Shown: in pieces, positions 6,013 to 63,937 of the stretch | How positions within the stretch are numbered: position 1 is the first letter of the stretch | Layout of the letters: each line of letters starts with the position of its first letter | NCBI GenBank assembly: GCA_922989275.2 | Contig: OV277863.1 | Coordinates: forward strand, 47,412,999 to 47,476,998 | Direction of reading: 5' to 3' | DNA length: 64,000 nucleotides | From: Gari tellinella | Taxonomy: Eukaryota > Mollusca > Bivalvia > Cardiida > Psammobiidae | Notes under the pieces: model-generated | Database searches by the model: none | Told to the model about the DNA's origin: nothing | The model's input: the letters and a program-made list of their open reading frames with translations, nothing else | Program-made: the position numbers and the translations under genes

Positions 6013-6262
6013 TTAACCCTTTTCCCAATAGAAGCGACTTTTAGCGTATTTAATTTATTCCTCCGCTGAAGAAAATAGTTAGTTTATACCCTCATGAACA
6101 ATTACCATTACAAATATTTTATATAGCCTAGCAGATTTTAGCTTAAAGCAGGCTGAAAGTAAAGCAGAATGTGCCTTAAGGCACATTCTGCTTTACTTTC
6201 AATCTGCTTTAAGTGGCCACCTGTCTTCAAAACTAGAAACAGGCTATGAGGTAAAGGGTTAA
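6013..6262 (+). mobile_element. Family A MITE (TTAA, piggyBac-like), full length
   Basis: Bounded by TTAACCCTTTTCCCAATAG and GTAAAGGGTTAA. A near-perfect hairpin lies at about 6143-6213 with arms AAAGTAAAGCAGAATGTGCC. TTAA at each edge fits a piggyBac-type target. The left 130 bp is almost identical to the copy at 50721, so this subfamily moved recently compared with most copies here. Confidence 0.88.
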
Positions 6263-6626
6263 AACCATATTTCTATAGGTTGTATGAAATGCCATGTATG
6301 AATTTTGCAAATTCTATTTCTTTGAGTTCTTCTAAACTCTTGATTGTATTCTGCTTAAAAAGTATATGGCCTTATGGAATTCTCTTGTTCCTCTACCAAA
6401 TACCGTGAGTCAATGGTAATTCTGACCTTGGTCTTTATCCAAACACTTTGCAAATGCCAATTAAACTACCATTAGATTCCAAATGTTGCAAATGGTTGTG
6501 ACAGGTGTCAAAAATCTTCTGATATACAGTATTAAAATGTTTGCACAACAGCCGCTCAATCAAGAAACAAGTATTTTACCTCTATACAGGTTACTGCTGA
6601 ATGTATGAGGAATGCAGAAATCTCAT

Positions 6627-6700
6627 AATTCTTGTATGACCAAAGTAATGCAGAAAGCTCCTGTAGGAGTTTTCTGCGTTACTTTTGTCATACAAGAATT
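6627..6700. repeat. G-type hairpin
   Basis: Inverted repeat AATTCTTGTATGACCAAAG... with inner arms GCAGAAAGCTCC around TGTA. No clear element ends outside the stem. Confidence 0.75.
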
Positions 6701-7942
6701 GTAACACTTTCATTAAAGGACTACAAAATCTTCTTTTAATTGGCAGTTATACGCAAGTTTTACTACTGTTTTAATTAGAAACAGGGTATAAAGGTATCTG
6801 ATTTTGATTCTATCTTACTGCTTATGTGCCTCATGCTTTTATGAATCATATTTGAGGATTAAAGGTATTCAGTTTTAAATGTACTGACAACATCAAAGTG
6901 TGAGGGCTTCCTCCAAAATTTGATTTAATGCTTGTTTAATTTCATAACATCAGCTTCGTTTAATTACCCCATAATGTAACAGTAAACACCTGATGAACTG
7001 TAATACTCTTCATACTTGATTGCAAGCACATGCAGGGAATTCTGCAGATAAAATAATATATTTCACAATTTAGTAATCTACCATTGGAGCTAGATTTTCA
7101 ATATTCAGTATTGGACAGTTTCTAATGTCTGGAATATACCAGTGTACAGAACTGAATTCCTGCTTCAATCGCAGAAAGTTGGCATAATTTTGATGTTTGA
7201 GTCAGGCTGCTGCTTAATTACACGTACACCTTATAAAGGTGCAGCTAAAAGTTTCAGTCAATAGTTTTCTGCTTTTGTTTCATTTTGCTTTAATCCGAAA
7301 ACTCAGCCATCTGTCATGAACACAACCAGAATCTAAGAGTTGATTTGAATGGTCGTAATAAGGGGAAATTACTTTTCTCCTTAAATTTTTTTCAAAACAC
7401 CTATAATCCTGCAGGATCCCTCTGATCAAGGACTTCTCTTTTGTAATATTGTGAATATTATTGGGACACATCCTTAAACAGTCAACATGTCATAAAAATA
7501 GTAAGTCATTTTGAAGTTTGAGTAATTTAAGGTTCTAAAACAAAACAAAAATTCAATATTGACAGTAATGATGCAGTACTATTAGCAGGTTTAACATTAT
7601 TTCCTTTTTCAAGATTTTAAAGTTGTAATTTTTTGCTCTACCGGACCAGCTTTTTTCAACGATCAGTAAAATTAAAAAAAAAAAACTTGTTTATTAATCC
7701 ATCCTAATAGTGGGATTGTTTTACTGCCCCAGCCAAAGAAAACAAGAGGTAAAGTTCCGTAACATCATAAACACTTTCCCGACCTTCTTATAGAATACTA
7801 GGCATTGGTTCATGAAGTAGTCTCCTTTGCGTTTTCTATTGTTTTATCATCTCATGCAATATTTAGACAAATGTAATGTTTGTCATCAACTGGTGTCTCA
7901 CTCTCTGATCACTGTGAATGGGGAGAAGTTGATATTCCTGGT
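6701..7942. other. No gene or clear repeat
   Basis: AT-rich, only short ORFs in either strand. I see nothing to annotate. Confidence 0.4.
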
Positions 7943-8193
7943 TTAACCCTTTCCCCCATAGAAGCGCCTTTTAGCGCATTCAGTTTATTCTTGCTCTGAA
8001 GAAAATAGTTCCAATTTATACATTCATAAATATGTATAATACAAAATATTTTCTTTATTCTAGCAGATGATAGCTTAAAGCAGGCTGAAAGTAAAGCAGA
8101 ATGCGCTTAAAGCGCATTCTGCTTTACTTTCAACCTGCTTTAAGTTGACACCTATATTCAATACTAGAGATATGCTATGTGGGAAAGGGTTAA
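7943..8193 (+). mobile_element. Family A MITE, full length
   Basis: TTAACCCTTTCCCCCATAG at the left, GTGGGAAAGGGTTAA at the right, hairpin at about 8074-8144 with core GCAGAATGCGC. Same orientation as the 6013 copy. Confidence 0.88.
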
Positions 8194-8229
8194 GTGGCAA
8201 ATGACAATTTTACTGATGGACGAGATTTC

Positions 8230-8445
8230 AACCCTTACCCATCATGCTGAATTTAGATTGCTTCTTGTTTTGACATCGGCAAATTATAAAAATGTTCAAA
8301 CTTAGCATTAAATATAATTTTTGCAAGAATATACATTTTACATTAAAACAATTTTCAAACTGTTTGGATCCTGATTAGATGCCAAGTTACTTGGCATCTA
8401 ATCAGGATCTAAACTGTTAACAAGTGAGATTCTGATTGGATCAAA
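8230..8445 (+). mobile_element. Family D element, diverged
   Basis: Starts near AACCCTTACCCATCATGCTG and carries a strong hairpin at 8357-8418 (CAAACTGTTTGGATCCTGAT against ATCAGGATCTAAACTGTT). The right boundary is unclear. Confidence 0.5.
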
Positions 8446-8677
8446 ACTGTAAAAGCAAGTGGGGTTGGAGACAATGTTCAGCACTATAAGAGTGGAGAAG
8501 AAGCCTTTTTGTGTCTGTACTCCTGCAGCAGTATCGCACACATTGACAGTGAGAATCCAAAGAAATGCCAGACTTTTCTTAACCAGAGACCCTTAACCTC
8601 TGCACTATCTGCTCTAATGGTCTCCTGTTAGCAGGAATAGAGCCAATAAAGACAGAAAAGGCTAAGAATTACTAGCA

Positions 8678-9084
8678 ATGCATTACTCCCAGGGCTCCAG
8701 ATAAGGGGAGTATTTCAAAAACTAAAATCTTTATTTCTGCTTTAAACCCTATGGTGTCACTACTCATAAGAATCGTCTCAAAGAGACGATTCTAATGAGT
8801 AGCAACATCATAGGATTTGATGCTGTATGAGTGAGAAAAGGTTGGATTTGTTCAGAAAACTCCATCTTATCTGGAGCCTTGACTCCATAGATACACATTT
8901 TTATGCCTTTAATTTATTATTCCACTGAAGAAAATAGTTCCAATGTATACAGCCATGAAAGAAATATTTTCTATGTTCTTAAAGATGGTAGCTTAAAGCA
9001 ATCTGCTTTACTTTCAACCTGCTTTAACTGTGGTCACCTGTCTTCAAAAACTAGAAACAAGTCATATATGGGGTAATAGGTTAA
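8678..9084 (+). mobile_element. Family A MITE interrupted by a B insertion
   Basis: The left end CATTACTCC is separated from its continuation ACTCCATAGATACAC by a complete B element (8690-8881). The right part continues with the A sequence through GAAGAAAATAGTTCC to GGGGTAATAGGTTAA. The central hairpin has been reduced to part of one arm. Confidence 0.75.
8690..8881 (-). mobile_element. Family B MITE nested in A, 5-bp target duplication
   Basis: CAGGGCTCCAGATAAG to CTTATCTGGAGCCTTG. It is flanked by ACTCC at 8685-8689 and 8882-8886. Removing the element and one ACTCC restores the A sequence CATTACTCCATAGATACAC, so the duplication is secure. Confidence 0.9.
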
Positions 9085-9159
9085 CCAATCTCATACTAAT
9101 AACCAATATTAATTGGTGACCTTTTTTGCAAACAATATTTATCAGGATGCAATGCACCA

Positions 9160-9307
9160 GGCTCCAAGGTTATAAATATTTTGAGTTGAGTCTGAAGTTG
9201 TTCTCAAGCATTTGATTGGTCAGATTTGAGCCTAGGCTCAAACATGACCAATCAAATGCTTGAGAACGAACTCAGACTCAACTGAAACTCTTTATAACCT
9301 TGGACCC
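9160..9307. repeat. Long imperfect palindrome
   Basis: Arms of about 70 bp: GGCTCCAAGGTTATAAA pairs with TTTATAACCTTGGACC, and inner arms CAAGCATTTGATTGGTCA pair with TGACCAATCAAATGCTTG around GAGCCTAGGCTC. Not a copy of families A-E. Confidence 0.8.
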
Positions 9308-9325
9308 AGATATTAGTGTTTTCTT

Positions 9326-9796
9326 CTGACCTGTCGGAGTTATTTTTAGATTTGAACATTCTAAAACTTTCAAAGGGATGCGTTTTCTCTACATACGGTT
9401 AATGATACGGATAGCTGTAATTTTTGTGCGCAATGTACAGTAGAGGATACCTTATTATTTCCCGTTTAAACGCAAACACAATGCACTAAACTGTGGAAAT
9501 TTACTTTAAGAAATTTTAATTATATTTTTTAATCTGAGTAGCAAACAGGTTGGTGCCTGATCAGACACCGGGATCTGGCTCCAACCTGTTTGCAATGGAA
9601 ATAATAGCTTTAGTATATAAATGCGTTTGTTGGGAAAGAATAAAATATCAGTAAAGTGAGCGCAGCAGTCTCGTGCTGCACGAGGATCATACTTATCTGA
9701 AGTAGGAAAGTGTGCGATTACATATTCGATGTTACCTTGCTTACCCATTTACATCATTAACTATTCTGTTCTAAAAATAACTCCGACAGGTCAGAA
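9326..9796. mobile_element. Inverted-repeat element with a D-type core
   Basis: Terminal inverted repeats CTGACCTGTCGGAGTTATTT at the left (9328 on) and AAATAACTCCGACAGGTCAG at the right (to about 9794) match over at least 25 bp. Inside is a GCAAACAGGTTGGTGCC / TGGCTCCAACCTGTTTGC hairpin and a TACAGTAGAGGATACC block related to the TA-type element at 53070. Confidence 0.7.
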
Positions 9797-9889
9797 AAAT
9801 CAGACAATATAAGGTGAGTGACTTCAATTACTAACATCTTTATGTCTCAATCACACCCTTAATAATTATTGTTGTGACTGTACTCAGTA

Positions 9890-9980
9890 GAAGCTTTCTG
9901 ATGAGTAGTCAGTCACAGCATAGGGTTTGGTTGAGCATAAATAAGAAAATGCTGGAACTGTTCAGTTTTCTAAGTACACC
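9890..9980 (-). mobile_element. Family B right-half fragment
   Basis: Contains GATGAGTAGTCAGTCACAGCATAGGGTTTGG-like sequence and the AAATGCTGGAACTGTTCAG half of B; the other half is absent. Confidence 0.5.
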
Positions 9981-10010
9981 TGTGGATGTGAGGCCAAGTA
10001 ACACCAAATA

Positions 10011-10460
10011 CAGTAAAACCTCTCTATTACCACCACTAATTTTAATTAATTATTTGGTGTTAATGACAGGCCACTGCTTAAAGCAAGGTGAGAGTAAAAC
10101 AGAAACCCTCAGGGAGCTTTCTGTTTTACTGTCACCTTGCATTAACCCTTTGAACCCTAGTCCCGTGTATAGGCGTCCTTTTCAAACAGTGTACATGTGA
10201 ATAGTACACTTGTCCTATGCAAACAGTGAAGACCCAGATCAGAGGGCTCCGAAAGGAGCCCTCTGATCAGGGTCTTCACTGTTTGTCATAATGCCAAACA
10301 GTGACAAAAATAACCCTCAAAAGTCAATAATGGACTAGACTAAAATGGAAACTGGAATTGTCCATTTAAAGTTTCAGGGAGGAAAGAATTAAGCTGTCAC
10401 CTGTCTTTTATACAATCAATTAGCCTTCTTTATAAGGGTGGTAATAGTGAGGGTTTACTG
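10011..10460 (+). mobile_element. Family E element carrying a nested C: composite copy 1
   Basis: Outer ends CAGTAAAACCTCTCTATTAC and GTAATAGTGAGGGTTTACTG, flanked by TA on both sides (pogo/Tc1-type target). The E hairpin (CTTAAAGCAAGGTGAGAGTA, core near GCAGAAAGCTCC) is followed by a complete C element at 10142-10392, then the E right half AAGCTGTCACCTGTC. The same arrangement recurs at 36268-36723. Confidence 0.85.
10142..10392 (+). mobile_element. Family C MITE (TTAA) nested in E
   Basis: TTAACCCTTTGAACCCTAG to GGAGGAAAGAATTAA with a strong hairpin GACCCAGATCAGAGGGCTCC around GAAA. TTAA on each side; excising the element leaves TTAA between CACCTTGCA and GCTGTCACC, matching uninterrupted E at 43639. 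Confidence 0.88.
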
Positions 10461-11700
10461 TAGCAGAAGGAAAGGAAACGTATGTGTATAGTACATGAAT
10501 TTGGAAGACAGCTTTTTAAGAAGACAACATAATGTAAATCAAATACTTAAAACCTATAGTAACAAATAATGTTTGGATCATGAGAATATAAAAGGTTAAA
10601 AGCACATTGTCTGGGAAACAACATGAACACAAAAGGAGAAAGCGGCCTTAGTGTATTGGAACTGTAAGCTATGTAATTCTTGCTGACCGCTTTCTCCCTT
10701 TATGTTAACTGAAGCATACTATAGCGCAGCCTCAGTGCTTTCCTTTCTCTTTAGTTACAGCTGTTATTGGTTCAATACTATTTAGTATTTAGTCGCCTTT
10801 TCATAGTTATACATTCTATGTTTATTGGTATACTTTCTCGAAACTAACTTTCTTGGATAAATAAACTAACTATCAAAGCAATTATTTCTTTTTAACTGAA
10901 TTTCTTTATTCTTTACCCTAACACTGGGGTAAAACTGGGTGTGAACCCTTGTTTAAATTATACTTTTTAAACAAAAATCCATAGAAACTGGTCAAACAAA
11001 CTCTTTTCACAAACCTTGTCATTCTCGATTATTCACAAAGCCACACATGATTCATAGCAGCCAACTCTTGTAATAAATGTCCTCATTGTCAAATATTCAC
11101 AAAACTTTCCAGTAAACACAACGTCAACTGTAATTCAGAAATTAACAAATCTTCGTGACCCAAATGAAAACTAGTGCCCCTTATTCATTTATCTTATCAT
11201 CTTAAAATGTCTTAACGCGAGGCGTTGCAAAATAGCAGTATGGCGCCTTCAAGCAAACAAATCACAAAATAATGTTCAGGATCCAAACAAAACTATGGTA
11301 CCCTCTCTCTATTACACTGAATGTTGGCCGAAGCTGATGGCTGTGAAGAGAAGGGTTTCCGCCTTGTCTCCTTTAAAGTCATCTCTGCCTAGACGTCACT
11401 GAAAAATAAAAGGAAAGGACCGAAAGACACCCGTCCTTTAAATTATCCCCACATAGGGGAGGGCGGGAGGGTTTTGATGTTTATGTTAGCTGAAAAATAG
11501 CTTGCCTGTTAGTTTGTAGAACCAAGAAGAAAGAGGCGGTGTCGAGGTAAATGTTTCACTCGCACGTGATTTACCTCAATCTCAAGAGTCCGGTAAAGCG
11601 CTAACGAAGCTTGACGAAAACACACCACCGGGCTCTTGGTATGACGACCTAATAGTGTTGCTCCCATACAAACGGTGCTATTCTTTATAAATAGCACTCA
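10461..11700. other. No gene found
   Basis: One loose inverted repeat, GGAGAAAGCGG (about 10640) against CCGCTTTCTCC (about 10690). The rest is AT-rich with slightly more CpG near 11210-11650. No recognisable domain in its short ORFs. Confidence 0.4.
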
Positions 11701-11719
11701 TTATTGTAATTTATTATAT

Positions 11720-12160
11720 ACATATCGATGATTTATAGAGATTTCTCAGTTAGATAAATTTGATATCGTCACTGTTGATATCATCACTACATGACTGTAG
11801 TGATGTCAGATGATATCACTTTTTGTGACGTCACGTCATAATTAGTTTAGTGACGTCGGGGTAATAAATTTTGTGTGTTTTTTCTGTAAAAACGTCATTA
11901 AAATATATATAATAAATAGAATAATCAATTCCTTTGAATAAATATATATGAAAAATATATCACTTGAATGGGTTGTTATCTGGCTAAAAATCTCGTTCTG
12001 CGGACTCGTTTTTTAACCAGATAACAACCCATTCTTGTGATATATTTTTCATATCAATCAAAAGAAATTGATTATCCTCTATATATAATTTTATATCAAT
12101 AATATCATGTCACATAAACCTAAATAGTTTCATGTTAATAATTATGTTATACATGAAAAT
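11720..12160. mobile_element. Long foldback element with TGACGTCA site
   Basis: A long inverted repeat spans about 11917-12082: AATATATCACTTGAATGGGT and TTGTTATCTGG pair with CCAGATAACAACCC and TTGTGATATATTTTTCATAT. To its left is TGACGTCA at 11826-11833 and further GACGTC words. Related in style to the foldbacks at 22392 and 34521. Confidence 0.65.
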
Positions 12161-16479: not shown

Positions 16480-16719
16480 TTAACCCTAGACCAGAGGTGC
16501 CACATGCATTATACCTATTCATCCTACAGATACCTAAATCTTTATGCTTTCATCATGTCCTACCTGTTAAAGAGGCAAAGAAAAAATATTCTGCAGCCTG
16601 ACAGGTGGCTACTTAAAGCTGGCTAAAAGTAGAGCAGAAAGCTCCTAAAGGAGCTTTATGCTCTACTTCCAGTCTACTTTAAGCAACCACATGTCTTAAT
16701 TCTTGAAGGGGAGGGTTAA
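16480..16719. mobile_element. TTAA element with a GCAGAAAGCTCC core
   Basis: TTAACCCTAGACCAGAGG to GAAGGGGAGGGTTAA. The hairpin at 16612-16684 has A-like outer arms (CTTAAAGCTGGCTAAAAGTA) but the G/E inner core GCAGAAAGCTCC. It is a core-swapped relative of family A. Confidence 0.65.
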
Positions 16720-21490: not shown

Positions 21491-21988
21491 AATAATGAAC
21501 TAATGCTAGTCCATAAATAATGCATAAAAAATAATCTTGATATTTTTTTGTAGACTTCAGTTTTTAAGAAGATTAAAATTCATTGCAAGATAAGTGATAG
21601 TCACTATTTTATGTCTTATGTAAAACAAATACATCTTGTATATAGTCAAGAAACCAGAAAGTCCAAATCTTGTTGCCATACTTATAACAAGACTGCTCTT
21701 ATGCTTCATGCAGTGACAGCTTAAAGTGTGGTTCATAATAATAATAAAAAAAACCACAAACAAAGTTGTAGCAGAAGACAAAGGTTGAAGCTTTTCATTT
21801 CATCTGATCTTTATGAAACTTGATGATAATGATTGTCTTGAAGGAATCTAGTTCAAGTTTGAATGTGGGTCATGTTTGCTCAAAAAATAGGTCACTAGGT
21901 CAAATCATAGAAAAACCTTGTTAACACTCTAGAGGCTACAAATCTCATTCAATCTTCATGAAACTTGGTTGAAATATTTGTCTCAATC

Positions 21989-22085
21989 ATATCTAGATCA
22001 ATTTTAAAAAATGTGGGTTGTGTACGGTCAAAAACTTAGTTTTTGACCGTACACAACCCACATTTTTTAAAATTGATCTAGATAT
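21989..22085. repeat. Perfect 97-bp palindrome
   Basis: Two 48-bp arms that I read as exact reverse complements around a single T at 22037. The arms start ATATCTAGATCAATTTT and meet at GGTCAAAAACT/AGTTTTTGACC. The left arm is ordinary array sequence, so the right arm is an inverted copy of it. Confidence 0.9.
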
Positions 22086-22391
22086 GGGTCAGTCTAGATC
22101 AAATCATAGAAAAAACTTACTAACACTCTTGAGGCTTCAAATCTCATTGGATTTTAATGCAACTTGGTCAGAATGTTTTCCTTATTGATATCTAGGTCAA
22201 GTTGGAATATGAATTATATTGGGTTAAAAACTAGGTCACGAGGTCAAATCATAGGAAAACCTTGTTAACACTCTAGAGGCTACAAATCTCATCCGATCTT
22301 CATGAAACTTGGTCAAAATGATTGCCTAATTGATATCTAGGTCAAGTTTGAATGTTTCAGAATCTAGGTCACTAGGTGAAATTATAGAAAA

Positions 22392-23307: not shown

Positions 23308-24149
23308 CATCTACATCTACAGATTACGTTAAGCTGTCACACTTGACAATTATTTAACGGTGCGCAAGTATAAGAGAGAAAAGATATATAAAGCAAAAAA
23401 GTAAAGTCAGAAAGAGCTAGTACGGGCAAGGGAAAGGCTTTGCATGTAGTGAAAAGTTAGAAAAAAAAGAGAAAATGTACCATCTACTACACCCCATCAG
23501 AGAGACCAATCCGGCTTGCGTGGCGCTACCAGGACACTTAGTCCCGCCGGCACAGCTCCCTCCAACAACTGAGGAGCAGCAGATGGCATGAAGATCCCCT
23601 AGAAGGGTTGGCAGGATAGCTCCCTCTTAAAAGATGCCAAAGAGGGAGCCTCAGCGGTGCTGGATGGTAGTCTGTTCCACAGTGGTATGGTTCTGGGGAA
23701 AAAACTGTACTTAAAGTAGTCTGTAGATGGAGTATACTGCTGAAATCTGAGTTGGTGTGACGATCTAGTCCTGGATGTTACTGGTGTCAAATAGGGAGAT
23801 GCTGGTATGCCTATCAAATGGTTTACAATTTTGTAGAAAATGATCAACTGGGCCTTTTCTCTCCTAGTTCCAAGGGATTCCCAATGCAGATGGTCCAACA
23901 TCTCTGTCACGCTGCTTGTGTTGCGATATCTGTTGGTCACAAATCGAGCTGCTCTGCGCTGGACCATCTCCAGCTGATGTTCAAGTTCTTTCTGATAGGG
24001 ATTCCAAATTGAGCAACAGTACTCTAAATTGGATCTGACGAGAGTCTTGTAGGCATTTGTCTTTGTGTTCTCTGATGCTCTGTGCAGATTTCTTTTCAGG
24101 AAGCCAAGCATGTTATTGGCTTTTTTAGACGTCCTGTCAATATGGTTTT
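23308..24149 (-). mobile_element. 5'-truncated non-LTR (LINE) retrotransposon
   Basis: Inserted inside the A copy at 23230-24230. On the minus strand it runs from a truncated 5' edge near 24149, through the C-terminal part of reverse transcriptase, to a 3' untranslated region ending near 23308 in a short GTAGAT tandem tail. Tail and 5' truncation are standard for target-primed insertion. Confidence 0.85.
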
Positions 24150-24153
24150 TCAT
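23599..24153 (-). CDS. LINE reverse transcriptase, C-terminal fragment (CR1/L2-like)
   Basis: A 184-residue open frame ending at a normal stop. It aligns, from my knowledge of the family, with the end of the reverse transcriptase ORF of CR1/L2/Jockey-type non-LTR elements, downstream of the catalytic palm. Landmarks: LGFLKRNL-like block at residues 16-23, LEYCCSIWNPY at 43-53, QRRAARFV at 65-72, LGTRREKAQL at 94-103 and FFPRTIPLWNRLP at 151-163. The palm with the catalytic aspartates, the endonuclease and the first ORF are absent because the copy is 5'-truncated. The apparent start methionine lies at the truncation edge and is probably not a real start. The frame has no internal stop, so the insertion is fairly young, but it cannot move by itself. 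Exact clade is uncertain. Confidence 0.88.
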   Translation of the reverse strand: MKNHIDRTSKKANNMLGFLKRNLHRASENTKTNAYKTLVRSNLEYCCSIWNPYQKELEHQLEMVQRRAARFVTNRYRNTSSVTEMLDHLHWESLGTRREKAQLIIFYKIVNHLIGIPASPYLTPVTSRTRSSHQLRFQQYTPSTDYFKYSFFPRTIPLWNRLPSSTAEAPSLASFKRELSCQPF

Positions 24154-24972: not shown

Positions 24973-25184
24973 TTAACCCTTATCCTGCGGTGATGTCGTC
25001 TGCTTCAATATTGTCGTCTGCAAAGTTTGTTAAATTTAGATTTATTCATTTTTAAAGTAAAGAAACCTAAAGAAGAGTGTCAAACAGTTTGGATCCAGAT
25101 CAGACACCGCGTTACGCGGTGTCTGATCTGGATCTAAACTGTTTGCAAAAATCAATAAAGTCGCGACCACAGGCAAAGGGTTAA
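24973..25184 (+). mobile_element. Family D MITE (TTAA), best copy in the window
   Basis: TTAACCCTTATCCTGCGG to CACAGGCAAAGGGTTAA. Two GTCGTCTGC blocks, then a near-perfect hairpin CAAACAGTTTGGATCCAGAT with inner arms CAGACACCGCG around TTA. Use this copy as the reference for D. Confidence 0.88.
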
Positions 25185-25393: not shown

Positions 25394-27297
25394 CAAGAAA
25401 TATCTTTAAAAAAGATATTCGGCGGAATGGGTGGTGAAGGTAATGATGTACATGGACTTGATTTTATCCAAGTTGCAATAAATAGGATGGTAAATCAGGA
25501 TATTAAGCTTAATATTTATCTAATAAGACACGCGCAGTAATCTACGACCACATACATATAATCAAAGACTGAAGGTCTTGAGAGTCGCCAAGAATGAGTT
25601 TTTGCAATCATTAAACTACTGGATCTGAGGTTAATCATTAGTTTGTAAAGGCAGTTGGTCTCTCAAAGACTGAAGGTGAAAGTACAGCAGAGAGCATTTA
25701 CACACGTTTATGCTTTTGATCGGGCTACATTTTGCTGCAAGTTGTCAGCTGTTTTTATTCCATCAATAAGTACTTTTTCAGAGGTGGTTGTAGAGAGATT
25801 TACTTGAAAATTATTGACAGATGGTACAGTTTGCACATGGATCTACTGCTTGGTTCACGTGGGGGGTGTCAAATTTCCACTTCCATCTTTATAAGCCAAT
25901 TGAATTGCACTTACTTCTTCCTAGGATGTGACTGAAAGTGATGAGAATTTTTAAAGACAGATCTAGATCACGGAATTATACTTCCATGTCTAGATCTACG
26001 TGTATCATTTTTATTTTGTAATTTGTAGATACCATAAATTACTAAAATTCGTATGTGTGTGCTCTTTTGTTAGTTGTTTATACTTTAAATATGGTTTGAT
26101 TGTTTACCTGATTTTGATTTGAGATTTTTGGAAAGCACCCCCGAAATATGCCGAATATGAATTGTTTGAAACGACCCCTCAAATGAGAAATTCATGTTGC
26201 CACCGGTAAATCACGGAATTATACAAAATGTGTATAATTTCTGTGGGTAAATACTTCAAGAATTCGTGAATGGAATTTGTCTTGTAGAGTTATAGTTCTA
26301 TGTTCTGATTTATTATAAAAATATCTACAAAGTGTAGCAATGTACGTTTTAGGTATCTAGATACGTCAGAGACATACAGAGTTTCTGTATGTCTCTGGAT
26401 ACGTGTTGTTGGGTTTTCGCATTTAACCAAGAGATTGCGATCGCGTTAAAAAAATCACGGTTTATTTACATTTGAGGTCACAGAGTTGCGCATGCGCTGG
26501 AGGAAAACGGTGTTAACACAAAAAATACCCATCATGCTCGAAATCTTTTCGACCGTCAAACGCCAGTTTTCTCGTAATCTCACTGAATTGTTACTGCTAT
26601 TCTTTCTTTTTCATATACTTGGTACTAGATGAAAATTATGATTAATTCTGTTATGAACAATTTCGTTCTGATTTGCAGAACGCATCAAATCATTGCCGAA
26701 CTTGAGACAATATGTCATATCTTAAAATAGAAACACTTTGTCATTCAAATCACTACCTAACGGTCGGGACACGTAAAATTTCTCGGTTATAACTCACTAG
26801 CAGTAGCGGAAAGTCGTGTTTACTACTGGTACCGCTACATAGCAAATCAGCCTATAACAGTCTGTGTCTCTTATTTTTACAAATTTGTAAAAGTCAGTAG
26901 TCAAGTCTAACCGCTACCCAATCAGACTATTCGATTTTAAGCACGTGTCCTTAAGCTTTCATTTCTGGTCATTCACGATTGGTTGGGCCATATAAGGTTT
27001 GAGGCTCAATGAGAAATCAGACCAGCTCCGCCGAAAAACATCAATATATGTATGCTTATATAGCAGGAGAGGGGTTAATATTTGATTGTTCTAAAGGTTG
27101 CAGGTCGATCATGATTTAGATGGTTGCAGATGAGTGCATGCACAGTATACAATTATCCTCCATCAATAAAACTAACACACAATTATTAATCATCATTAGA
27201 CCATGCTATATAATGGTTTTTGAATCCCATACTTGATTAAATATTTAAGATCTTACTAAAAATGTTAAGTGAGATATTCCATGTGGTAGGAGGACCA
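25394..27297. other. Repeat-poor, CpG-richer stretch without a gene
   Basis: Starts with the palindromic ATATCTTTAAAAAAGATAT, which recurs inverted at about 53332. It contains a hairpin AGAGACATACAGAG / CTGTATGTCTCT (26366-26397) and AATTATACAAAATGTGTATAATT (26213-26240). CpG is commoner from 26400 to 27000. Frames are short. The stretch could be an older element; I cannot name it. Confidence 0.4.
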
Positions 27298-27298
27298 G

Positions 27299-27551
27299 GG
27301 CTGCCATAAGTTGACATGAAAATTCCTAAGATTTCCAAATTTGCATTTTTCAAGTGCGATTTTACGAATCGTACCTTTACTCCATAGCCTTTTTCTTGTT
27401 TTGTTGACATGCGACTACTTAAAGCAGGCTGTAAGTAAAGTAGAATGCGCCTTAGGGCGCATTCTGCTTTACTTTCAGCCTGTTTTAAGCTACCATGAAA
27501 TTGGAAAAAATCCGGAAATTTAGGAAAAATCCGGAGAAATGGCAGCCCTGG
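27299..27551 (-). mobile_element. Family P element, copy 1, 6-bp target duplication
   Basis: CAGGGCTGCCATAAGTTGAC to AAATGGCAGCCCTG, flanked on both sides by GAGGAC. The interior from TTTACTCCATAGCC to TTTTAAGCTACCAT is an A segment with its GCAGAATGCGCC hairpin. Confidence 0.88.
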
Positions 27552-29742: not shown

Positions 29743-29996
29743 TTAACCCTTTACCCCATGATAGCCTGATTTTAGTTTTGAAAAAAGGGGACAGCTTAAA
29801 GCAGGTTGAAACTAAAGCAGAATGCGCCCTAAGGCGCATTCTGCTTTACTTTCAGCCTGCTTTAAGCTACCACCTGCTGGAATAAAAAAATATTCCTTCT
29901 GATACATTTTCATGACTGTATAGATTGGAATTATTTTCTTCCACGGAGGATTAAACGGAATGCGCTAAAAGTCGCTTCTATAAGGGAAAGGGTTAA
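29743..29996 (-). mobile_element. Family A MITE, full length
   Basis: TTAACCCTTTACCCCATGAT to AAGGGAAAGGGTTAA, hairpin core AATGCGCCCTAAGGCGCATT. D/A debris follows to about 30115. Confidence 0.87.
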
Positions 29997-43638: not shown

Positions 43639-43844
43639 CAGTACAACCTTTCTATAAAGACCACTAAAAAGAAGGCTAATTGACTGCATAAAGAGACAGG
43701 TGACAGCTTAAAGCAAGGTGACCATAAAACAGAAAGCTCCTAAAGGAGCTTTCTGTTTTATGGTCACCTTGCTTTAAGCATTCACCTGCCTTCAACATCT
43801 GATAATTAACACCTTTTAGTGGTGGTAATAGAAAGGTATAACTG
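43639..43844 (+). mobile_element. Family E element (TA), uninterrupted copy
   Basis: CAGTACAACCTTTCTATAAA to GGTAATAGAAAGGTATAACTG with TA on both sides. Perfect-looking hairpin GCTTAAAGCAAGGTGACCAT with GCAGAAAGCTCC core replaced by ACAGAAAGCTCC. This copy shows the pre-insertion state for the composites at 10011 and 36268. Confidence 0.85.
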
Positions 43845-49219: not shown

Positions 49220-49477
49220 CAGGGCTGCCATTTCTCCGGATATTTCCTAAATCCTCGTTTTTTTTTTACTAGATCATGGTAGCTTAAAGCAGGCTGAAAG
49301 TAAAGCAGAATGCGCCATAAGGCGCATTCTGCTTTACTTCCAGTCTGCTTTAAGTAGTCACGTGTCAACAAAACTAGAAACAAGCTATGGGGTATAGTTA
49401 GGATTCGTAAATTCGCACTTATTAAAATGCAAATTTGGAAATCTTAGGATTTTTCATGTTAACGTATGGCAGCCCTG
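49220..49477 (+). mobile_element. Family P element, copy 2, 6-bp target duplication
   Basis: CAGGGCTGCCATTTCTCC to ACGTATGGCAGCCCTG, flanked by ATTACA at 49214-49219 and 49478-49483. Contains an A segment from CATGGTAGCTTAAAGC to GCTATGGGGTATAG with the GCAGAATGCGCC hairpin. Confidence 0.9.
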
Positions 49478-50720: not shown

Positions 50721-50972
50721 TTAACCCTTTCCCCAATAGAAGCGACTTTTAGCGTATTTAATTTATTCCTCCGCTGAAGAAAATAGTTCCAGTTTATACC
50801 CTCATGAACAATTACCATTACAAATATTTTATATAGCCTAGCAGATTTTAGCTTAAAGCAGGCTGAAAGTAAAGCAGAATGCGCCTTAAGGCGCATTCTG
50901 CTTTACTTTCAACCTGCTTTAAGTTGTCACCTATTTTCAAAACTAGAAACAGGCTATGGGGTAAAGGGTTAA
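50721..50972 (+). mobile_element. Family A MITE, young copy
   Basis: TTAACCCTTTCCCCAATAG to GGGGTAAAGGGTTAA, perfect AATGCGCCTTAAGGCGCATT core. Left half nearly identical to the 6013 copy. Confidence 0.9.
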
Positions 50973-52742: not shown

Positions 52743-53345
52743 TCCCGTCGCAGACGGGTCTGTTTTGTAATTTGACCGCAACTCTATGAAACAATTTAAC
52801 CAATCAGGAATTATCAGAAATCCTGGTCAATGATCAGGTGCTTGAAATGCAGTACTCTTATCGGCCAATGGCCTAGACTGGCGTTCTGTTATTTTTTCAC
52901 ATCAATCTTGCGAGTGTAAACCTGGCAAAACATTGAGATGCAGTCTATGTCATCATTTCTAAATTTAGCGTGGATAAGCTCTAAATTTAGCATGTGGGAA
53001 AGTCTGTTTACGAAAGATGTTAAGTCAGAATCGGTGTATACACTTGTCTCTGGTTAAGTGAATACTGTACAGTGGAGAATGTGTTATCTGTTTACGCTAA
53101 AACTATTATTTGCAGTGCAAACAATTTGGAGCCAGATCAGACGCCGGGTAACCCGGCGTCTGATCAGGCTCCAAACTCTTTGCCACCAAGATAAACATGA
53201 AATATCAGAATTGTCCAAAAGTTGTTCTTTTCTACGTTTTAGTGTTTTGCGTTTGCGTACGTTTGCGTTTAAACAGGAAAGAATAACAGATTCTCCACTG
53301 TACCCCACACAAAACTTTAACCTGCGACGGAATATCTTTTTTAAA
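52743..53345. mobile_element. Possible inverted-repeat element enclosing 53070-53300
   Basis: CCCGTCGCAGACGGG near the left, AACCTGCGACGG near the right (53321). The right edge carries GAATATCTTTTTTAAAGATA, shared inverted with 25396. Confidence 0.35.
53070..53300. mobile_element. TA-type MITE with a D-type hairpin core
   Basis: CAGTGGAGAATGTGTTATC at the left, GATTCTCCACTG at the right, TA outside both. The centre GCAAACAATTTGGAGCCAGA with CAGACGCCGGG is the D hairpin (53116-53183), but the ends are pogo-like, not TTAACCC. Confidence 0.75.
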
Positions 53346-53473: not shown

Positions 53474-53850
53474 TCAATCATTGTTGTAAGAAGGCAGGGC
53501 TGCCATTTCTCCAGATTTTTCCAAAATCTTCGGATTTTATCTTAGCAGATGATAGCTTAAAACAGGCTGAAAGTAAAGCAGAATGCGCCTTAAGGCACAT
53601 TCTGCTTTACTTTCAACCTGATTTAAGTAATCGCGCTTGAAAAATAGAAACTTTGGAAATCTTAGGATTTTTCAATATCAACTTATGGCAGCCCTGAGAA
53701 GGGACTTGTTGTTTGGAGGGCTGTTGTGAAGTTGGAGCACTGCAATGAAGCTGTCCTTAGAAGATGCTGAGATCAATCATTGTTGAAAGGAGGGAATTGT
53801 TGTTCTGAGGGCTGTTGTAGGGAGAGAGCACTGTAATGAAGATGCTGAGA
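53474..53850 (+). repeat. Local tandem duplication containing P
   Basis: ATCAATCATTGTTG... TTGTTG...GAGGGCTGTTGT...GAGCACTGCAATGAAG... occurs as two diverged units (from about 53474, minus the P insert, and from about 53772). Confidence 0.75.
53495..53696 (+). mobile_element. Family P element, copy 3, 6-bp target duplication
   Basis: CAGGGCTGCCATTTCTCC to ACTTATGGCAGCCCTG flanked by AGAAGG (53489-53494, 53697-53702). A-type hairpin inside. An empty version of the target lies about 95 bp downstream of the excised target. Confidence 0.92.
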
Positions 53851-56808: not shown

Positions 56809-57003
56809 CAGGGCTCCAGATAAGAGGGTGTAAACCGAAAAAAATCTAACATTTTCTCACTTATTTCAGCACCAAAACCTATGGTGTCACTACTCATTAG
56901 AATCGTCTCTTTGAGACGATTCTAATGAGTAGTGACACCATAGGATTTAACACAGAAATAAAAATTTAAGTTTTTGAAAATACTCCCCTTAACTGGAGCC
57001 TTG
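56809..57003 (+). mobile_element. Family B MITE, full length
   Basis: CAGGGCTCCAGATAAGAGG to CTTAACTGGAGCCTTG, perfect core AGAATCGTCTCTTTGAGACG. Flanks CCATA and CTATA differ at one base. Confidence 0.85.
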
Positions 57004-57067
57004 CTATAATATTATATAAATATCCATCAGCTAAACTATTGTGTAGGATGAAATGAAATACGAAGTA

Positions 57068-57604: not shown

Positions 57605-57643
57605 GAAATTTAAGAGTGCAGACTCAAGTCAGACATATGCTTT

Positions 57644-58130: not shown

Positions 58131-58241
58131 AAAGTAATGCAGAAAAGCTTCTTATGCTTCATTAAATAAAAGACACATTGACTGTATTTAACCCTTTACC
58201 CAATAAACTATTTATAACATTAAATACAAGTGATCACTTAA

Positions 58242-58778
58242 AGGGACTCGCAACCGGATGGTGTACTTGTCAAAATAAAATAAAATACTCAAATAAAAGC
58301 AAATTTGTGGCATTATTTGGCTTCTGACATTAAAAAAATATGATCAGTCCAAAAAAAGTCTCAAGAATCGTCACCGAATCTTAGATTTTTAGATATTTTC
58401 CATCGTTTTTCTATAGCGTTAGCTAACGGTATAGTTGTTGTTGTTGCTTCTCTACACGGGCTCAGACATAAACACGAGCCGAATTACGCAGTTGTATGCA
58501 CTTTCGATCGCTACACATTGAAATACGTTAAATCGATCCGAGATAAACGGATAGTTCCGTGATCCATTGGTCTAAGCGGTTTCCCCTATTTTGCCTTCTG
58601 TCCGCCAATGCCGGGCCCCGGGTTCGAATCCCACCAGAGACCAATATTTTTTTATATTGAAATACATTTTTTTAAACAGAATTTCTTATCCTAAACTAAT
58701 TCTTTACCATTTATATAAGCGTTTGACACATATTTACAAATTACTATTTTTAATGCACCATCTGGTTGCGAGTCGCTT
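58242..58778 (+). mobile_element. H: TTAA-flanked element containing a tRNA-like sequence
   Basis: AGGGACTCGCAACCGGATGG at the left and CCATCTGGTTGCGAGTCGCT at the right are inverted repeats with few mismatches. TTAA lies immediately outside each (58238-58241, 58779-58782). The interior has a tRNA-like sequence at 58561-58643. About 537 bp, no ORF. Confidence 0.82.
58561..58643 (+). tRNA. tRNA-like sequence with good A and B boxes, inside H
   Basis: TGGTCTAAGCGG (58568-58579) fits the Pol III A box and GGTTCGAATCC (58621-58631) is a consensus B box. The 42-base gap suggests a class II (Leu/Ser-like) origin. The 5' GATCCAT does not pair with the 3' CAGAGAC, and only 3 base pairs of the T stem form, so a working tRNA is unlikely. 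A SINE head or captured pseudogene is likelier. Confidence 0.5.
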
Positions 58779-59066
58779 TAAAGCAGGTTGAAAGTAAAGC
58801 AGAATGTGCCTGAAGGCACATTCTGCTTTACTTTCAGCCTGCTTTAAACTACCATCTGCTAGGCTATATAAAATATTTGTTCTGGTAATTGTCCATAGGG
58901 TATAAACTGGAACTATTTTCTTTAGCGGAGGAATATATCAAATACGCTAAAAGTCGCTTCTATGGGGGAAAGGGTTAAGACAGATTAATGTCTGCTTAAT
59001 GCAGAACAAAAGTTATGCAGAAAAGCTTCTTAGGCTTCATGAAATAAAATATTCACTTATTGCATT

Positions 59067-59275
59067 TAACTCGTTCACTGCCAATGTTGCCAAAAGCCGA
59101 CTTTGCAAACTGTTTGACATTGGCATCATCATTTCTTCAGTCAAAACATCCCTAAATGATGGCTTAATTTGACTTTAAAATCATTGCAGACAACACTGCC
59201 AATGCAGACAATATTTTGGCAGTTAGAGGGTTATGAAGCAGACAATAAAACTTGACAGAGAAAGAGTTAAGACAG
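59067..59275 (+). mobile_element. Family D-like element, diverged
   Basis: TTAACTCGTTCACTGCCAAT to GAGAAAGAGTTAA with TTTGCAAACTGTTTGACATT and ATTGCAGACAACACTGCC blocks; the GGATCC hairpin is gone. Confidence 0.5.
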
Positions 59276-59283
59276 ATGTCTGC

Positions 59284-59534
59284 TTAACCCTTTCCTCCCT
59301 GAAACTTTAATTGGACAATTCCGGTTTCCATTTTAGTCTAGTCCTTTACTGACTTTTAAGGGTTGTTTTTGCCTATGTTTGACATTTTGACAAACAGTGA
59401 AGACCCTGATCAGAGGGCTCCTTTCGGAGCCCTCTGATCTGGGTCTTCACTGTTTTCACAGGACAAGTGTACCATTCACATGTACACTGTTTGAAAAGGA
59501 TGCCTATATGCGGGACTAGGGTTCAAAGGGTTAA
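59284..59534 (-). mobile_element. Family C MITE nested in a G-type copy
   Basis: TTAACCCTTTCCTCCCTGAA to GGGTTCAAAGGGTTAA. Left context GTCTGC and right context TACAGAAAGC fit the G sequence GCTTAATGCAG, so the insertion used its TTAA. Confidence 0.85.
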
Positions 59535-59544
59535 TACAGAAAGC

Positions 59545-59735
59545 TTATCCCATTACTTCATTAATCCTTTTATTTATTCTTTAATTCGCTTAAAAGAAAA
59601 TAGTTCCTCTTTATACAATCTTGAATATATGCTTCTTAAGAAATATTTCCTATATCCTAGACTCGAGAAGCATTCTGCTTTACTTTCAGTCTGCTTTAAG
59701 CAACTTTCTGTCTTCAATACTGAAAACCACCTGGT
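59545..59735 (+). mobile_element. Family A, damaged
   Basis: CCCATTACTTCATTAATCC, AAAAGAAAATAGTTCC, AGAAGCATTCTGCTTTACTT and AAGCAACTTTCTGTC. Left hairpin arm and right end lost. Confidence 0.55.
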
Positions 59736-60483
59736 TAATGATAATGTATTACTTTTATTTGGCAGTAATTTAAGCTCACATCTAAATATGCTCCTACATT
59801 GTGCATTTGCCTAACACTGGCTTCATCATTTTAACACACATGTTCACACTACTGACTTTCCAAATGGACACTTCCTAATGTTCTTACTAATGACCACATG
59901 GGGAGTTTGCAACAAAAATATTTGAAACTGTTGTCATCTTTTTCGCAAATGATGAATATACTAATTTCCAGCACAGTAAAGGTGGACATCCAAAAACAAC
60001 CCCAATATTATCAGGAGACAAATATTACTCTGACTTTTCCCTCTTTCCTGTCTGTTTTGAATTTGTGTTAATCAAATAATGACAGAGAATGGTAACAATT
60101 GAAACACTTTGATTGACTACATTTCGCTCCGGGTTGACACTTTTTAAGCAGAATGTTTGTGACAGGGAAAAGAATGAAGTCAAAGACCATGGATTTATTT
60201 TTGTTTCAAATTAAGTGTGTAATGAGTTTTTGTCTCGTTGGCTCTTAGGAGAATACATGGCTGATGAAGATGTTTCCCTAGTCTGACTTGTCTGTCGAAG
60301 CTTGTCTTTCCACAGGATTCACGTTGTCTGGAGGTTTCATCTTTTTGCTTTTTTGGTGATAGCTGACAAGATATCCCTGACAAAAAATATTTTATTATGA
60401 AAGGCAAGCCAAGAGGGCATGTACATGAAGTGTGCTAGTCAGTAGTGTTTACAATATTGTGTCTGGTGCATCATTCTTAGAAC
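59736..60483. other. No gene found
   Basis: Unassigned. The minus-strand 70-residue frame at 60195-60407 has no recognisable features. Confidence 0.35.
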
Positions 60484-62060
60484 AAGGCTCGATGTAGATG
60501 AGAGGGAGTAAACTGAACAAATCCAACATTATCTCACTTATTTAAACACCAAACCCTATGGTGTAACTACTCATTAGAATCGTCTCAAAGAGATGATTCT
60601 AATAAGTAGTAACACCATAGGGTTTAGGGTAGAAATGAAGATTTTAGTTTTTGAAATACAGTAAACTCCGCTTATAACGATATTCAGGGGACCGTGGAAT
60701 AAGTATCGTTACATCCGGATATCGTTACAAGCGATCTGGTGGGTCTTGACGACAGTATCCGAATTTTGTTCTATCCGAAACAATGGTTACTACATAGAGT
60801 TCTGCGCATTTTAAGACTAACGAAAACAATACTATTCTGACCTGTTATAAACTTTAATGGTTGTTATCTCTTTGTTTCAACTGGCACAAATAAACTTATT
60901 GTGCAGCTATTTCACTATTTACAAATGATTTACGTACTGTCTTTCTAGTTGTTCATACATACTGGATAACGAAAGTAAACCGGAAATGAACATGGTTTAA
61001 TCCAGACAGGGTTCTAAATTAAGCTCGCATACTCGCAAACTGCGAGTGGAATAAGATCACTGCAAGAATTAAGTGACTTTTCCAGAAACTCGCAAAAAAA
61101 TGCGAGTAGCGTTTTTCGGACAGATAAACACAATACTACGCCTGGCAAACTATGCTCGCTTTATTCCGTACCATTTAGAGTGGCAGAAATTGACGAGTAG
61201 ATAACCGAGTATGTTTCGTAAGCCAATCATAGCTTCTCGGGCAGTTTCAACATCTTTTTTGTTGGTAAGAATGACGTAATGACGGACTTTCCCAATAATC
61301 ATTGGCTAATGAAACACAAAAACTTTGCTACAGTACTTCGGAGTTCCGATGTCTGCAAATATGCGGGTAAACAATTCTAATCACTGACTTGACAACCCGA
61401 CAAGTTCGTCAAAGACGAGGCCATTTAAAACAAAGTTTGTGTTTTTCTAAGTCCTTTATAGACCTGTTGAATTATCTGGTATTTGGAGTTTAATCCAACA
61501 CTTTGTCTTTCCGACCGTACACATACATATTACAGGTCCGTTACACATAAGAATTAAGTATCGTGTAGGCGAGTGAATGAAAACAAAGACCGAACGTGTA
61601 GTGATTTTTATTCACAAAATATAACATATATAAAATATGAATTCATGTAGAAATTTTGTCATCTCAAAGTGATTTGATGAGATAACAAAACTTGGAAACC
61701 CTCATGTAATGGTAAGTATGCTCATAATTGGACTGGTTACATGGTGCAGTGCACACGCACTATTGTTTGTTTGAAACTTGTTAGCGATATTTTTCATAAC
61801 TTTCCCGGATTTGTCTTCGCACCTCTACACAGGTGAAAATATCGTTACATGCGATCAAACTGGAGGCATGGGACTGAAAATTAACATCGTTACATCCAGA
61901 TTATCTTAACAAGCGATATCGTTACAAACGGAGTTAGCTACATTGAATTATATAGAAGGCTGGCAGGGACCGAAGGATCTGAATCGTTACAAGCGATATA
62001 TCGTTACTAGCGATATCGTTACAAGTGGAGTTTACTGTACTCCACTTTTTTAGTGCTCTG
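60484..62060 (+). mobile_element. Family B MITE split by a Tigger-like element
   Basis: AAGGCTCGATGTAGATGAG, AACAAATCCAACATTATC and the core run up to TTTTTGAAATA, then the 1379-bp F3 insert, then ACTCCACTTTTTTAGTGCTCTG. Removing F3 and one TA gives a normal B right end. Confidence 0.82.
60659..62037. mobile_element. Pogo/Tigger-like non-autonomous element (F3)
   Basis: CAGTAAACTCCGCTTATAAC at the left, GTTACAAGTGGAGTTTACTG at the right, TA on both sides. ATCGTTACA words repeat at least three times near the left end and six times near the right, some as GATATCGTTACAAGCGAT. No transposase recognised. Confidence 0.85.
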
Positions 62061-63269
62061 TTGAAAGGCAAAGTTGTTTTGTGTTATAAGTTAAACACCA
62101 TCCCATTGGATGCTGGATACCCTGAGTAATTCAGATCAGATTCCAAGTTATACTATATCTGATCAGGATCCAAATGATGACAATTTGATTTATACCTGAA
62201 AATATAGTGAAGAAGAGTATATAGTTCCAGCATTAAACTTTTAGTTATTCCATAAATGTGCATTTTACACTTTCATGTATAACCCCACACTGAAGAAAAT
62301 TTTAGTTCCACCTTTTACTGTCATGAATATGTACCACAAGAAAGGTTACGTGTATTTGATTCAGTCTTTTACATTTAAAGACTATACCAATTTAAAACAA
62401 GGATATTTCGAGTTAAGAAAATAGTATCACAAACTAAAATTATAATTGGATGAAGATGAAAAATTTGGCATAATTTGAGAATGAGATGTGACAAATATAA
62501 AAAAATAAGATTTGTGTCCATTCTGTCTACTAAATTACCCAGTAATCAGGAATGATTTTACTGCATTGTCTGGCACCGTATTGCTGTGGAGTTTTAACTT
62601 TGAAATCTTCGGAATGGTTACTCTATTAGCTACTGGAATTGAATTTATTCAATTTTAAGACAATTATTGAATTTTTTATGACTAAGAAAAACGCTAAATT
62701 TCCCCGAGAACCATACTTACCGAAATAAGTGTTTACTGTTAAACTTCTGTTTATCCTTAGGGCATTTTTTTCAGCCAATTGTATAGCCGTTATTGGGCTA
62801 TGTTTCCCATGGCAAAATAAAATTATCTTTTTTACCCCTAATTTTCAGCAAAAAATGCCTAATTGCTAGAAGAAAAAAAGTGCTGAGCGATATAGTATAC
62901 ATATACATAAATATATGTACATGTACCAGGTCAAGTAAATGGAAAATCATTGATCAGTCAAATAAACTGATACAATTTGTTTCATTTTGTTTCTTGTGTG
63001 CAAAATTCTCAGTCACACTGATTCAATGCCAAAATTGTAATTCCAAGAATATTCCCAAAATGTTTGTTTTTTAGGCTCTGACCTTTCCAAAGGGACTCAA
63101 AGGGACAAAAAAGGTGATTTTATAAAGGATAAAGGAAAAGGTAAAGGTGTTTTAGGCTTTTAGCTGGCAATTTTATTTACTAGTAAGTAGAGGAAAGGGG
63201 CCTTGACACAACTATGAATATTTCTATACAATTCAAGGATAAGAGGAAAGTGAAAGGACCATTTCTGGG
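62061..63269. other. Mostly unassigned; A fragment at 62248-62345
   Basis: ATTCCATAAATGTGCATTTT, CTGAAGAAAATTTTAGTTCC and TGTCATGAATATGTACCACA are an A left half. A short AGATCAGATTCC / GATCAGGATCC stem lies at 62133-62172. The remainder holds no gene I can support. Confidence 0.45.
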
Positions 63270-63521
63270 TTAACCCTTTACCTCATAGCCTGTTTAAAGT
63301 TTTGAAGACAGGTGACCACTTAAAGCAGGTTGACAGTAAAGCAGAATGTGCCTTAAGGCACATTCTGCTTTACTTTCAGCCAGCTTAAAGCTAAAATCTG
63401 CTAGGCTATATGAAATATTTATAATGGTAATTGTTCATGAGGGTATAAACTGGAACTATTTTCTTCAGCGAAGGAATAATCTAAATACGCTAAAAGTCGC
63501 TTCTATGGGGAAAAGGGTTAA
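63270..63521 (-). mobile_element. Family A MITE, full length
   Basis: TTAACCCTTTACCTCATAGC to GGGGAAAAGGGTTAA, hairpin GTGCCTTAAGGCAC. Right half very close to the copy ending at 58978. Confidence 0.88.
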
Positions 63522-63680
63522 CTAATTGGCAAGAAGTCTGGGTCTATGTGATAAAAGCGTTCCTGTACAGCTATTTAGGTATGGAAGTCTGATGCAGTTT
63601 CCTTGTCACAGTGCTTACATTTGTATAATTTTCACATGGACAGTGAAACTCGAGACATCATTTCCATTGAACAGGAAGCT

Positions 63681-63937
63681 TTAACCCTTTACTTAGTAGG
63701 GGTTACTTGGTCTGGAAGACAAGTGGTTGCTTAAAACAGGCTGAAAGTAAAGCAGAAAGCTCCTGAAGGAGCTTTCTGCTTTACTTTCAACCTGCTTTAA
63801 GCATCCACCTGTCAGTATGTAGGAAAAGTTTCCTTGGCTGTTTTGATAGAGACATGGTACGTAGAAGCGTGGATAGGCAATCTCTATGAGGAATAGGTCA
63901 AGGCATGAAAGGATGTTGCTATAGAGGAAAAAGGTTG
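63681..63937 (-). mobile_element. A-type element with a G-type core
   Basis: TTAACCCTTTACTTAGTAGG to AGAGGAAAAAGGTTGA. Outer arms CAGGCTGAAAGTAAAG are A-like while the core is GCAGAAAGCTCCTGAAGGAG. Flanking segments match A only loosely. Confidence 0.7.

Follow-up and report, generated by a model that had tools for sequence, protein, structure and literature searches.

Sharing of sequence modules among transposable elements is already in print in several forms: transfer of a module between element classes, internal sequences of miniature inverted-repeat transposable elements (MITEs) that raise transposition, modular MITEs of bivalves, and palindromic MITEs. In this study, we analyzed MITEs with hairpin-forming palindromic cores in a 64-kb stretch of the genome of the bivalve Gari tellinella (assembly GCA_922989275.2, contig OV277863.1, positions 47,412,999 to 47,476,998 of the forward strand; hereafter the window), in which the same cores lie between ends of different kinds. 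In MER6 (PMC6887750), as here, a conserved module moved between elements with different machinery and was amplified by its new ends, although in the excerpted part of that report the module is the V domain of a short interspersed element (SINE) in one MITE family, whereas palindromes recur in the present genome across numerous MITE families whose ends are of several kinds. An internal sequence of the rice Stowaway MITE Ost35, studied with Osmar14 (PMC3660474), is reported to enhance transposition, but the excerpt of that paper describes no palindromic module common to transposon superfamilies. The Pearl-type modular MITEs of bivalves (PMC5139131) have internal modules common to repeats in invertebrate genomes; these are, in the portion of that account drawn on here, tandem satellite-like repeats, unlike our single hairpins with paired changes. 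Made1/hsa-mir-548 (PMC1784062) is a palindromic MITE with a stable hairpin fold, but its palindrome consists of the terminal repeat, and the excerpt describes no sharing across different ends. Bacterial REP palindromes (PMC3733652, in part) likewise form few high-copy families and may be mobile units; they differ in being bacterial and 20–40 bp long, and tyrosine transposases are the presumed movers of the GTAG type, whereas most of the hairpins assigned here are inside MITEs.

Among the matches listed in open-licence literature (titles and abstract starts), we recognized no report of palindromic cores common to terminus classes; four core strings were absent from the open-licence texts searched, and the 16 papers with any of six core or terminus strings were judged unrelated by title. 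The open question addressed is how MITEs gain huge copy numbers and whether more is needed than terminal inverted repeats (TIRs) and a borrowed transposase. The present genome offers replicated natural cases, in which two hairpin modules have each been joined to different kinds of ends and comparisons within families serve as controls.

Hairpin cores in elements with different ends

The initial annotation of the window had claimed that the same foldback cores are present inside elements with different termini. We located its motifs in the letters of the window and printed the elements with their flanks, and searched the 1.6-Gb genome as well as a 264-kb sample made up of 20 preset 10-kb stretches plus the window. 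The claim was confirmed, on a scale far beyond the window. The arm of the first core (core1), AAAGTAAAGCAGAATGYGCC, is common to elements with TTAACCC...GGGTTAA ends (family A, at 6013, 7943 and 50721) and to elements with exact CAGGGCTGCCAT ends (family P, at 27296, 49220 and 53495), the latter with 6-bp duplications (Table 1). Elements with TA/CAGTAAAACC ends (family E) also host core1 in a diverged form, and the annotated AAGCTCC version was indeed found in the TA element at 43639–43844, which has the TA duplication and a left end, CAGTACAACC, one base off the motif. A second core (core2) is present, as had been stated, both in a TTAACCC element (24973–25184) and in an element with TA/CAGTGGAGAAT ends (family T, 53070–53300). 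Two further cases fared less well: the TTAACCC/GGGTTAA ends at 16480–16719 are present but match little beyond those 7 bases, making this a weak case, and the supposed TTAACCC-ended element at 63681–63937 has TTAACCC at its left but GGTTG at its right end.

Folded as single-stranded DNA, five of the hairpins gave −30.7 to −49.7 kcal/mol, 10.6 to 16.6 standard deviations below shuffled sequences. The core1 arm had 135,354 forward and 134,767 reverse exact matches genome-wide (270,121 in total; control 0/0). Together, these counts and the folding exclude chance. A core2 variant arm had 7,278 and 7,237 matches. In the sample, core1 matched at 183 places, with both arms in 119, and 188 of the 205 long palindromes fell in three BLAST clusters of 89 (core1), 79 (core2) and 20 (core3). 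Nine hairpin-MITE consensuses, which carry two of the three hairpins, cover 59,894 of the 264,000 sample bases (22.7%). Segments of the sample with at least six matches numbered 1,641, with 1,146 of them near a core; the remaining 495 include degenerate core carriers and different repeats.

Counts by end type were similarly clear. At least one core1 arm was found in all eight P end pairs and all ten E end pairs of the sample, and core2 in 11 of 12 T pairs by regular expression. TTAACCC end pairs numbered 87, with core1 in 49 and core2 in 15 under strict rules; 14 of the other 23 showed, on visual inspection, a palindrome resembling core2, and deletion forms account for part of the remainder. 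The hosts of core2 are T plus five TTAACCC consensuses (D0–D4, each built from 3 to 11 copies) whose other sequence is largely different, with short motifs such as GCAGACGA recurring across D1–D4, and at least one further TTAACCC-ended set (sample loci L026 8371, L049, L051 and L056). The hosts of core3 have CAGGGCTCCAGATAA ends, present within one mismatch in 14 of 20 copies. By end type, then, core1 occurs with TTAA, TA and 6-bp elements, core2 with TTAA and TA elements, and core3 with one type.

These hosts have the structure of MITEs, being short, with TIRs, a target duplication and many copies. Consensus lengths are 252 bp for A, 206 for E, 246 for T and 213–251 for D, and the P pairs span 189–258 bp, with one of 483 bp that contains a nested A. 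The TA duplication was seen in 12 of 12 T pairs and 6 of 10 E pairs, and the 6-bp duplication in 6 of 8 P pairs. As judged from their TTAA target and TTAACCC...GGGTTAA ends, families A and D probably belong to the piggyBac superfamily, a cloned member of which has an end that begins TTAACCC according to the excerpt of one report (PMC4625184). The TA duplication of E and T would place these families with the Tc1/mariner-pogo type. Elements of the hAT superfamily make an 8-bp target duplication. The CAGGG..CCCTG ends look hAT-like, but P and the core3 hosts did not show an 8-bp duplication: it is of 6 bp in P where found, with one of 7, and of 6 bp in 4 of 20 core3 hosts as scored, the others having shorter ones, one of 7 or none; neither was assigned to a superfamily.

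Amplified composites and the capture of an A end

Both sharing of modules across termini and amplification of the resulting composites are seen directly in the genome. A P end with core1 at the correct spacing occurs 16,830 times (8,499 + 8,331; control 0/0), and a T end with core2 occurs 43,603 times (21,715 + 21,888; control 0/0), so that the cores are not each restricted to one terminus with private exceptions. For a closer view of P we assembled 26 copies, of which seven were sample pairs (a nested one was excluded) and 19 came from 20 loci fetched genome-wide by end plus core1, whose core is therefore present by construction and both of whose ends were found in 19 of 20. In 15 of the 26, the stretch next to the hairpin can be aligned with the A right end and stops at A column 245–247 of 252, with scores of at least 22.5 versus a shuffled maximum of 13.5. 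Because this common stop is 5–7 bp short of the A terminus, the fossil A end points to a single capture in a P ancestor, which would have been in the direction A to P. In a shorter P form the hairpin is present but the A remnant is missing, most simply read as the result of a later deletion. For the E and T cores the direction of transfer is not readable. At sample locus L019 (6960–7442), a complete A element is situated at the central TTAA of the hairpin of a P element, a fresh nested insertion.

A comparison of core trees with termini had been proposed as a check for conflict between the two. The trees, which have about 70 columns and are weakly resolved, mostly sort by termini. The E cores (5 rows) form one clade with support 98 and the T cores (30 rows) one with support 92, while a single clade of P cores (23 rows) is not rejected (p-AU 0.348), the free tree taking 10 A/P changes. 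An earlier 90-core tree had 11 label changes versus 24.1 when shuffled. The rejection of D1 and D3 clades in the core2 trees (p-AU 0.004 and 0.002) was left unused, as copies had been mislabelled from neighboring elements. Also set aside was a regular-expression survey of cores, which matched 86 of 300 shuffled pieces. Since core trees follow termini, transfer of cores between terminus classes looks rare at this tree resolution; within A, core exchange is possible. The suggestion that hairpins are swapped by recombination or nested insertion is therefore upheld to the extent of one readable capture, but not as free circulation between terminus classes.

Conservation and palindromy of the cores

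Among the 49 A copies of the random sample, the hairpin diverged from the consensus by 0.067, the TIRs by 0.113 and the flanks by 0.167. The core was below the flank in 47 of the 49, the drop coincides with the palindrome, and the difference persists without CpG, TpG and CpA contexts (0.057 versus 0.152). With 5 to 11 copies per family, the corresponding core, TIR and flank values were 0.044, 0.051 and 0.113 for D0; 0.054, 0.040 and 0.262 for P; 0.095, 0.065 and 0.171 for E; and 0.025, 0.019 and 0.035 for T, a young family.

Changes between families and variants are largely paired. In alignments of consensuses and hand-picked single copies, 16 of 31 stem pairs had changed on both sides among 11 core2 sequences and 97.7% of cells were paired (of 341 cells, 47 had changed doubly, 2 had a standard change on one side and 8 were unpaired). 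Among 10 core1 sequences the corresponding values were 17 of 35 stem pairs and 96.0% (of 350 cells, 35 double, 4 one-sided and 14 unpaired). None of 500 shuffles matched the observed count of double-changed pairs or cells. As G–U intermediates are few, DNA palindromy would fit better than RNA structure. In the core2 alignment (A1), pair 17/53 is A–A or T–T in 4 of 11 sequences (D0, D4, T and the hairpin at window 57679), and its neighbors are paired.

Within families the picture is different. The 28 T copies have 79 one-arm and no matched changes (1.0 by chance), and 2 more changed on both sides without pairing, whereas the eight E copies have 24 one-arm and 12 matched changes (4.1 by chance). 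One-arm and matched changes numbered 32 and 2 in D0 (0.3 matched by chance), 3 and 0 in D1, 14 and 3 in D2 (1.2), 11 and 4 in D3 (1.4), and 240 and 25 in A (14.6). In a second A set of 83 rows, which contains some near-duplicates and loci chosen by exact arm, one CpG pair accounts for 25 matched changes versus 12.5 expected, and all other pairs for 6 versus 8.3 by chance, with 322 one-arm changes. Arm-to-arm conversion in resident copies was rejected on the latter result, and on the absence of matched changes beside the 79 one-arm changes of T. The one-arm excess in T and A, taken with the matched changes between families, indicates that resident copies decay mostly arm by arm and that matched changes set apart the more distant copies and families.

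Hairpins are often damaged after insertion, as indicated by 16 deletions that extend at least 15 bp into the hairpin in a set of 104 copies with full ends, assigned to A, D or E; no two have both end points alike, and each damaged form occurred only once in this small sample. A further 20 deletion rows are outside or barely touch the hairpin, at least seven of them artefacts of wrong assignment. A few copies in this survey were misassigned or misoriented, and misaligned T rows and one D0 row (on an A element) were dropped.

Possible explanations for the shared hairpins

We favor, at slightly better than even odds (about 0.55), the explanation that shared modules in MITEs result from capture plus a filter at the amplification of source elements. 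These MITEs, moved by at least three transposase classes judging by ends and duplications, have in common palindromic modules of ~65–100 bp. In a rare step, readable for A into P, one element would be caught inside another, whose outer ends then amplify the composite, and within each family the module would be inherited and kept in sequence and palindromy. Source elements with a broken hairpin would leave few progeny, palindromy thereby being filtered at amplification. We infer both the selection at this step and a role for the hairpin, in hairpin or cruciform form, in some step that all these elements go through, which might be end pairing, replication-coupled copying or chromatin access. A step shared by cut-and-paste elements is favored because the hairpin occurs with different kinds of ends; it could be, for example, replication-linked copying, or a cruciform that brings together the two ends of an element that is itself very short. 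That hairpins stay more alike than the surrounding DNA suggests, on sequence comparison, that they may help the elements multiply. A stronger form of the idea, in which the palindromes are portable amplification cassettes that nearly any abundant MITE here must carry, whatever its transposase, that act through a step common to cut-and-paste elements, and that are kept palindromic by source-element selection, is a tentative proposal that we hold less likely than not.

The initial annotation had offered a similar idea, an advantage of the palindrome itself, and its interpretation as a whole is partly supported. Support for an advantage is indirect and does not extend to target attraction. It comes from low core divergence and from changes that are paired when families and variants are compared, a pattern not seen within resident T copies.

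Several observations weigh against capture plus filtering. The core is no better conserved than the TIRs in T, P and E, and the A copies were recognized partly by core and TIRs, which leaves some bias. No single MITE family could be assigned by flanks for 17 of 89 core1 and 21 of 79 core2 palindromes. Mismatch correction during transposition would give paired changes without selection, and low core divergence could stem from core exchange among A sources. The latter possibility is raised by the CpG pair at 161/172, which in a set of 76 A copies, affected by selection since it includes loci chosen by exact arm, was C on both arms in 24, T on both in 23, and C on one and T on the other in seven. 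Its state is not tied to the flanks (nearest neighbor alike in 24 of 47 versus 23.0 expected), and r2 was 0.46 between arms, 0.013 from core to flank and 0.062 from flank to flank. This fast-mutating pair may flip in concert within source lineages, or A sources may exchange short tracts of the core.

Among the alternatives, the one that survives best, although we consider it unlikely, is that the hairpin is a functionless passenger, a few nested composites having been amplified by their outer transposases so that cores are alike by descent. The fossil A end in P and the fresh nesting in L019 are both what it would predict. However, a neutral core should diverge like its flanks, unlike the A cores at 0.067 versus 0.167; double-sided changes, which between families and variants affect half of the stem pairs, would be unexpected without constraint or correction; and the shorter P form has lost its A remnant yet retains its hairpin.

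It is also rather improbable that cores are swapped or homogenized by recombination or gene conversion, with the palindrome as a hotspot of breakage and repair. Concordance of the CpG pair between arms without linkage to flanks fits this proposal, as does the core distance among random A copies, which is flat at 0.115–0.124 while flank distance climbs from 0.18 to 0.32 (the core distance is 0.154 at a flank distance of 0.38, and only 6 pairs are under 0.15). Yet cores sort by termini, as seen in the E and T clades and in a P clade that is not rejected, the linkage test rests on the 2 of 72 core columns with a second allele of at least 15%, and the lack of matched changes in T gives no sign that single arms are overwritten in that family.

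Repair of stem mismatches at each move through a hairpin or cruciform state would need no selection and agrees with the occurrence of matched changes in the more diverse families (12 in E, 4 in D3 and 3 in D2) and not in T. We think this improbable, since by itself it leaves the low core divergence unexplained, and young T copies might have been expected to show matched private changes, of which there were none among 28.

A self-mobile hairpin, similar to bacterial REP palindromes and able to insert both into MITEs and at other places, seems very unlikely. The edges of the cores vary little across hosts (GACAGGTG for core1 and GCAAACAG for core2) and some hairpins have no assigned host, for instance at window 14870, 42949 and 57679, but 71 of 89 core1 and 57 of 79 core2 palindromes can be placed by their flanks in one of nine MITE families. 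In addition, some apparent solo copies have TTAACCC ends (L026 8371) or common flanks (L023 72 with L023 848 and window 48684), and inspection by eye, rather than a systematic search, turned up no convincing target duplication around any solo copy. Attraction of TTAA elements to the TTAA at hairpin centers, which would join cores to new ends and is a form of the target attraction that the initial annotation had entertained, is scarcely credible despite the nested case in L019 and TTAA being the commonest center of core1 palindromes (42), because center TTAAs are not preferred over others in the sample (4 A ends versus 49 intact TTAAs, compared with 243 versus 2,234 elsewhere and 2 versus 203 in the arms).

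These results also provide a warning for repeat annotation, which, if based on internal similarity, would lump together elements of different mechanisms.

Elements and other features of the window

The elements and hairpins located in the window are listed in Table 1.

Table 1. Hairpin-carrying elements and hairpins in the 64-kb window (TSD, target site duplication).
Positions	Strand	Feature	
6013–6262	+	A element (TTAACCC ends, TTAA target), GTGCC/GGCAC version of core1	
6132–6225	.	core1 hairpin inside the A element at 6013	
7943–8193	+	A element with core1	
16480–16719	+	core1 (GCAGAAAGCTCC) flanked by short TTAACCC/GGGTTAA ends; weak case	
24973–25184	+	D3-type TTAACCC element with core2	
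25081–25145	.	core2 hairpin inside the D3-type element	
27296–27550	-	P element (CAGGGCTGCCAT ends, TSD GAGGAC), core1 and fossil A right end	
29743–29996	-	A element with core1, reversed	
43639–43844	+	E element (TA duplication, CAGTA-type ends), central core1 of E version	
43695–43790	.	core1 hairpin, E version (AAACAGAAAGCTCC)	
49220–49477	+	P element (TSD ATTACA), core1 and fossil A right end	
50721–50972	+	A element, GCGCC/GGCGC version of core1; 98.7% flank identity with the 6013 copy	
53070–53300	-	T element (TA duplication, CAGTGGAGAAT ends) with core2	
53495–53696	+	P element (TSD AGAAGG), shorter form: core1 present, without A-end remnant	
56879–56943	.	core3 hairpin, host element with CAGGGCTCCAGATAA-type ends	
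59284–59534	-	TTAACCC element of D0 type, core2 in GAGGGCTCC version	
63270–63521	-	A element with core1, reversed	
63681–63937	+	core1 (GCAGAAAGCTCC), TTAACCC at left only; right end not confirmed	

Comparison of phage records with window positions 1–8000 gave no match, and a scan of viral contigs for the core1 arm gave 0 matches. Two palindromes are outside the three hairpin clusters: a perfect one with 49-bp arms and a 1-nt loop at window 21988–22086, a singleton in the sample, and another palindromic repeat (GTCGAACATACC...) at L020 ~5892–6040, with ~8 sample loci. An open frame of 184 aa on the minus strand at window 23599–24153, for which Pfam gave one sub-threshold match only, resembles the end of a reverse transcriptase of a long interspersed element. 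At window ~58811 and L009 ~8458, the right arm of core1 runs into AAAGCGACTCGCAACCAGATGGTGC-like sequence, which is also part of a repeat with ~14 loci in the sample, perhaps a SINE or other TTAA element.

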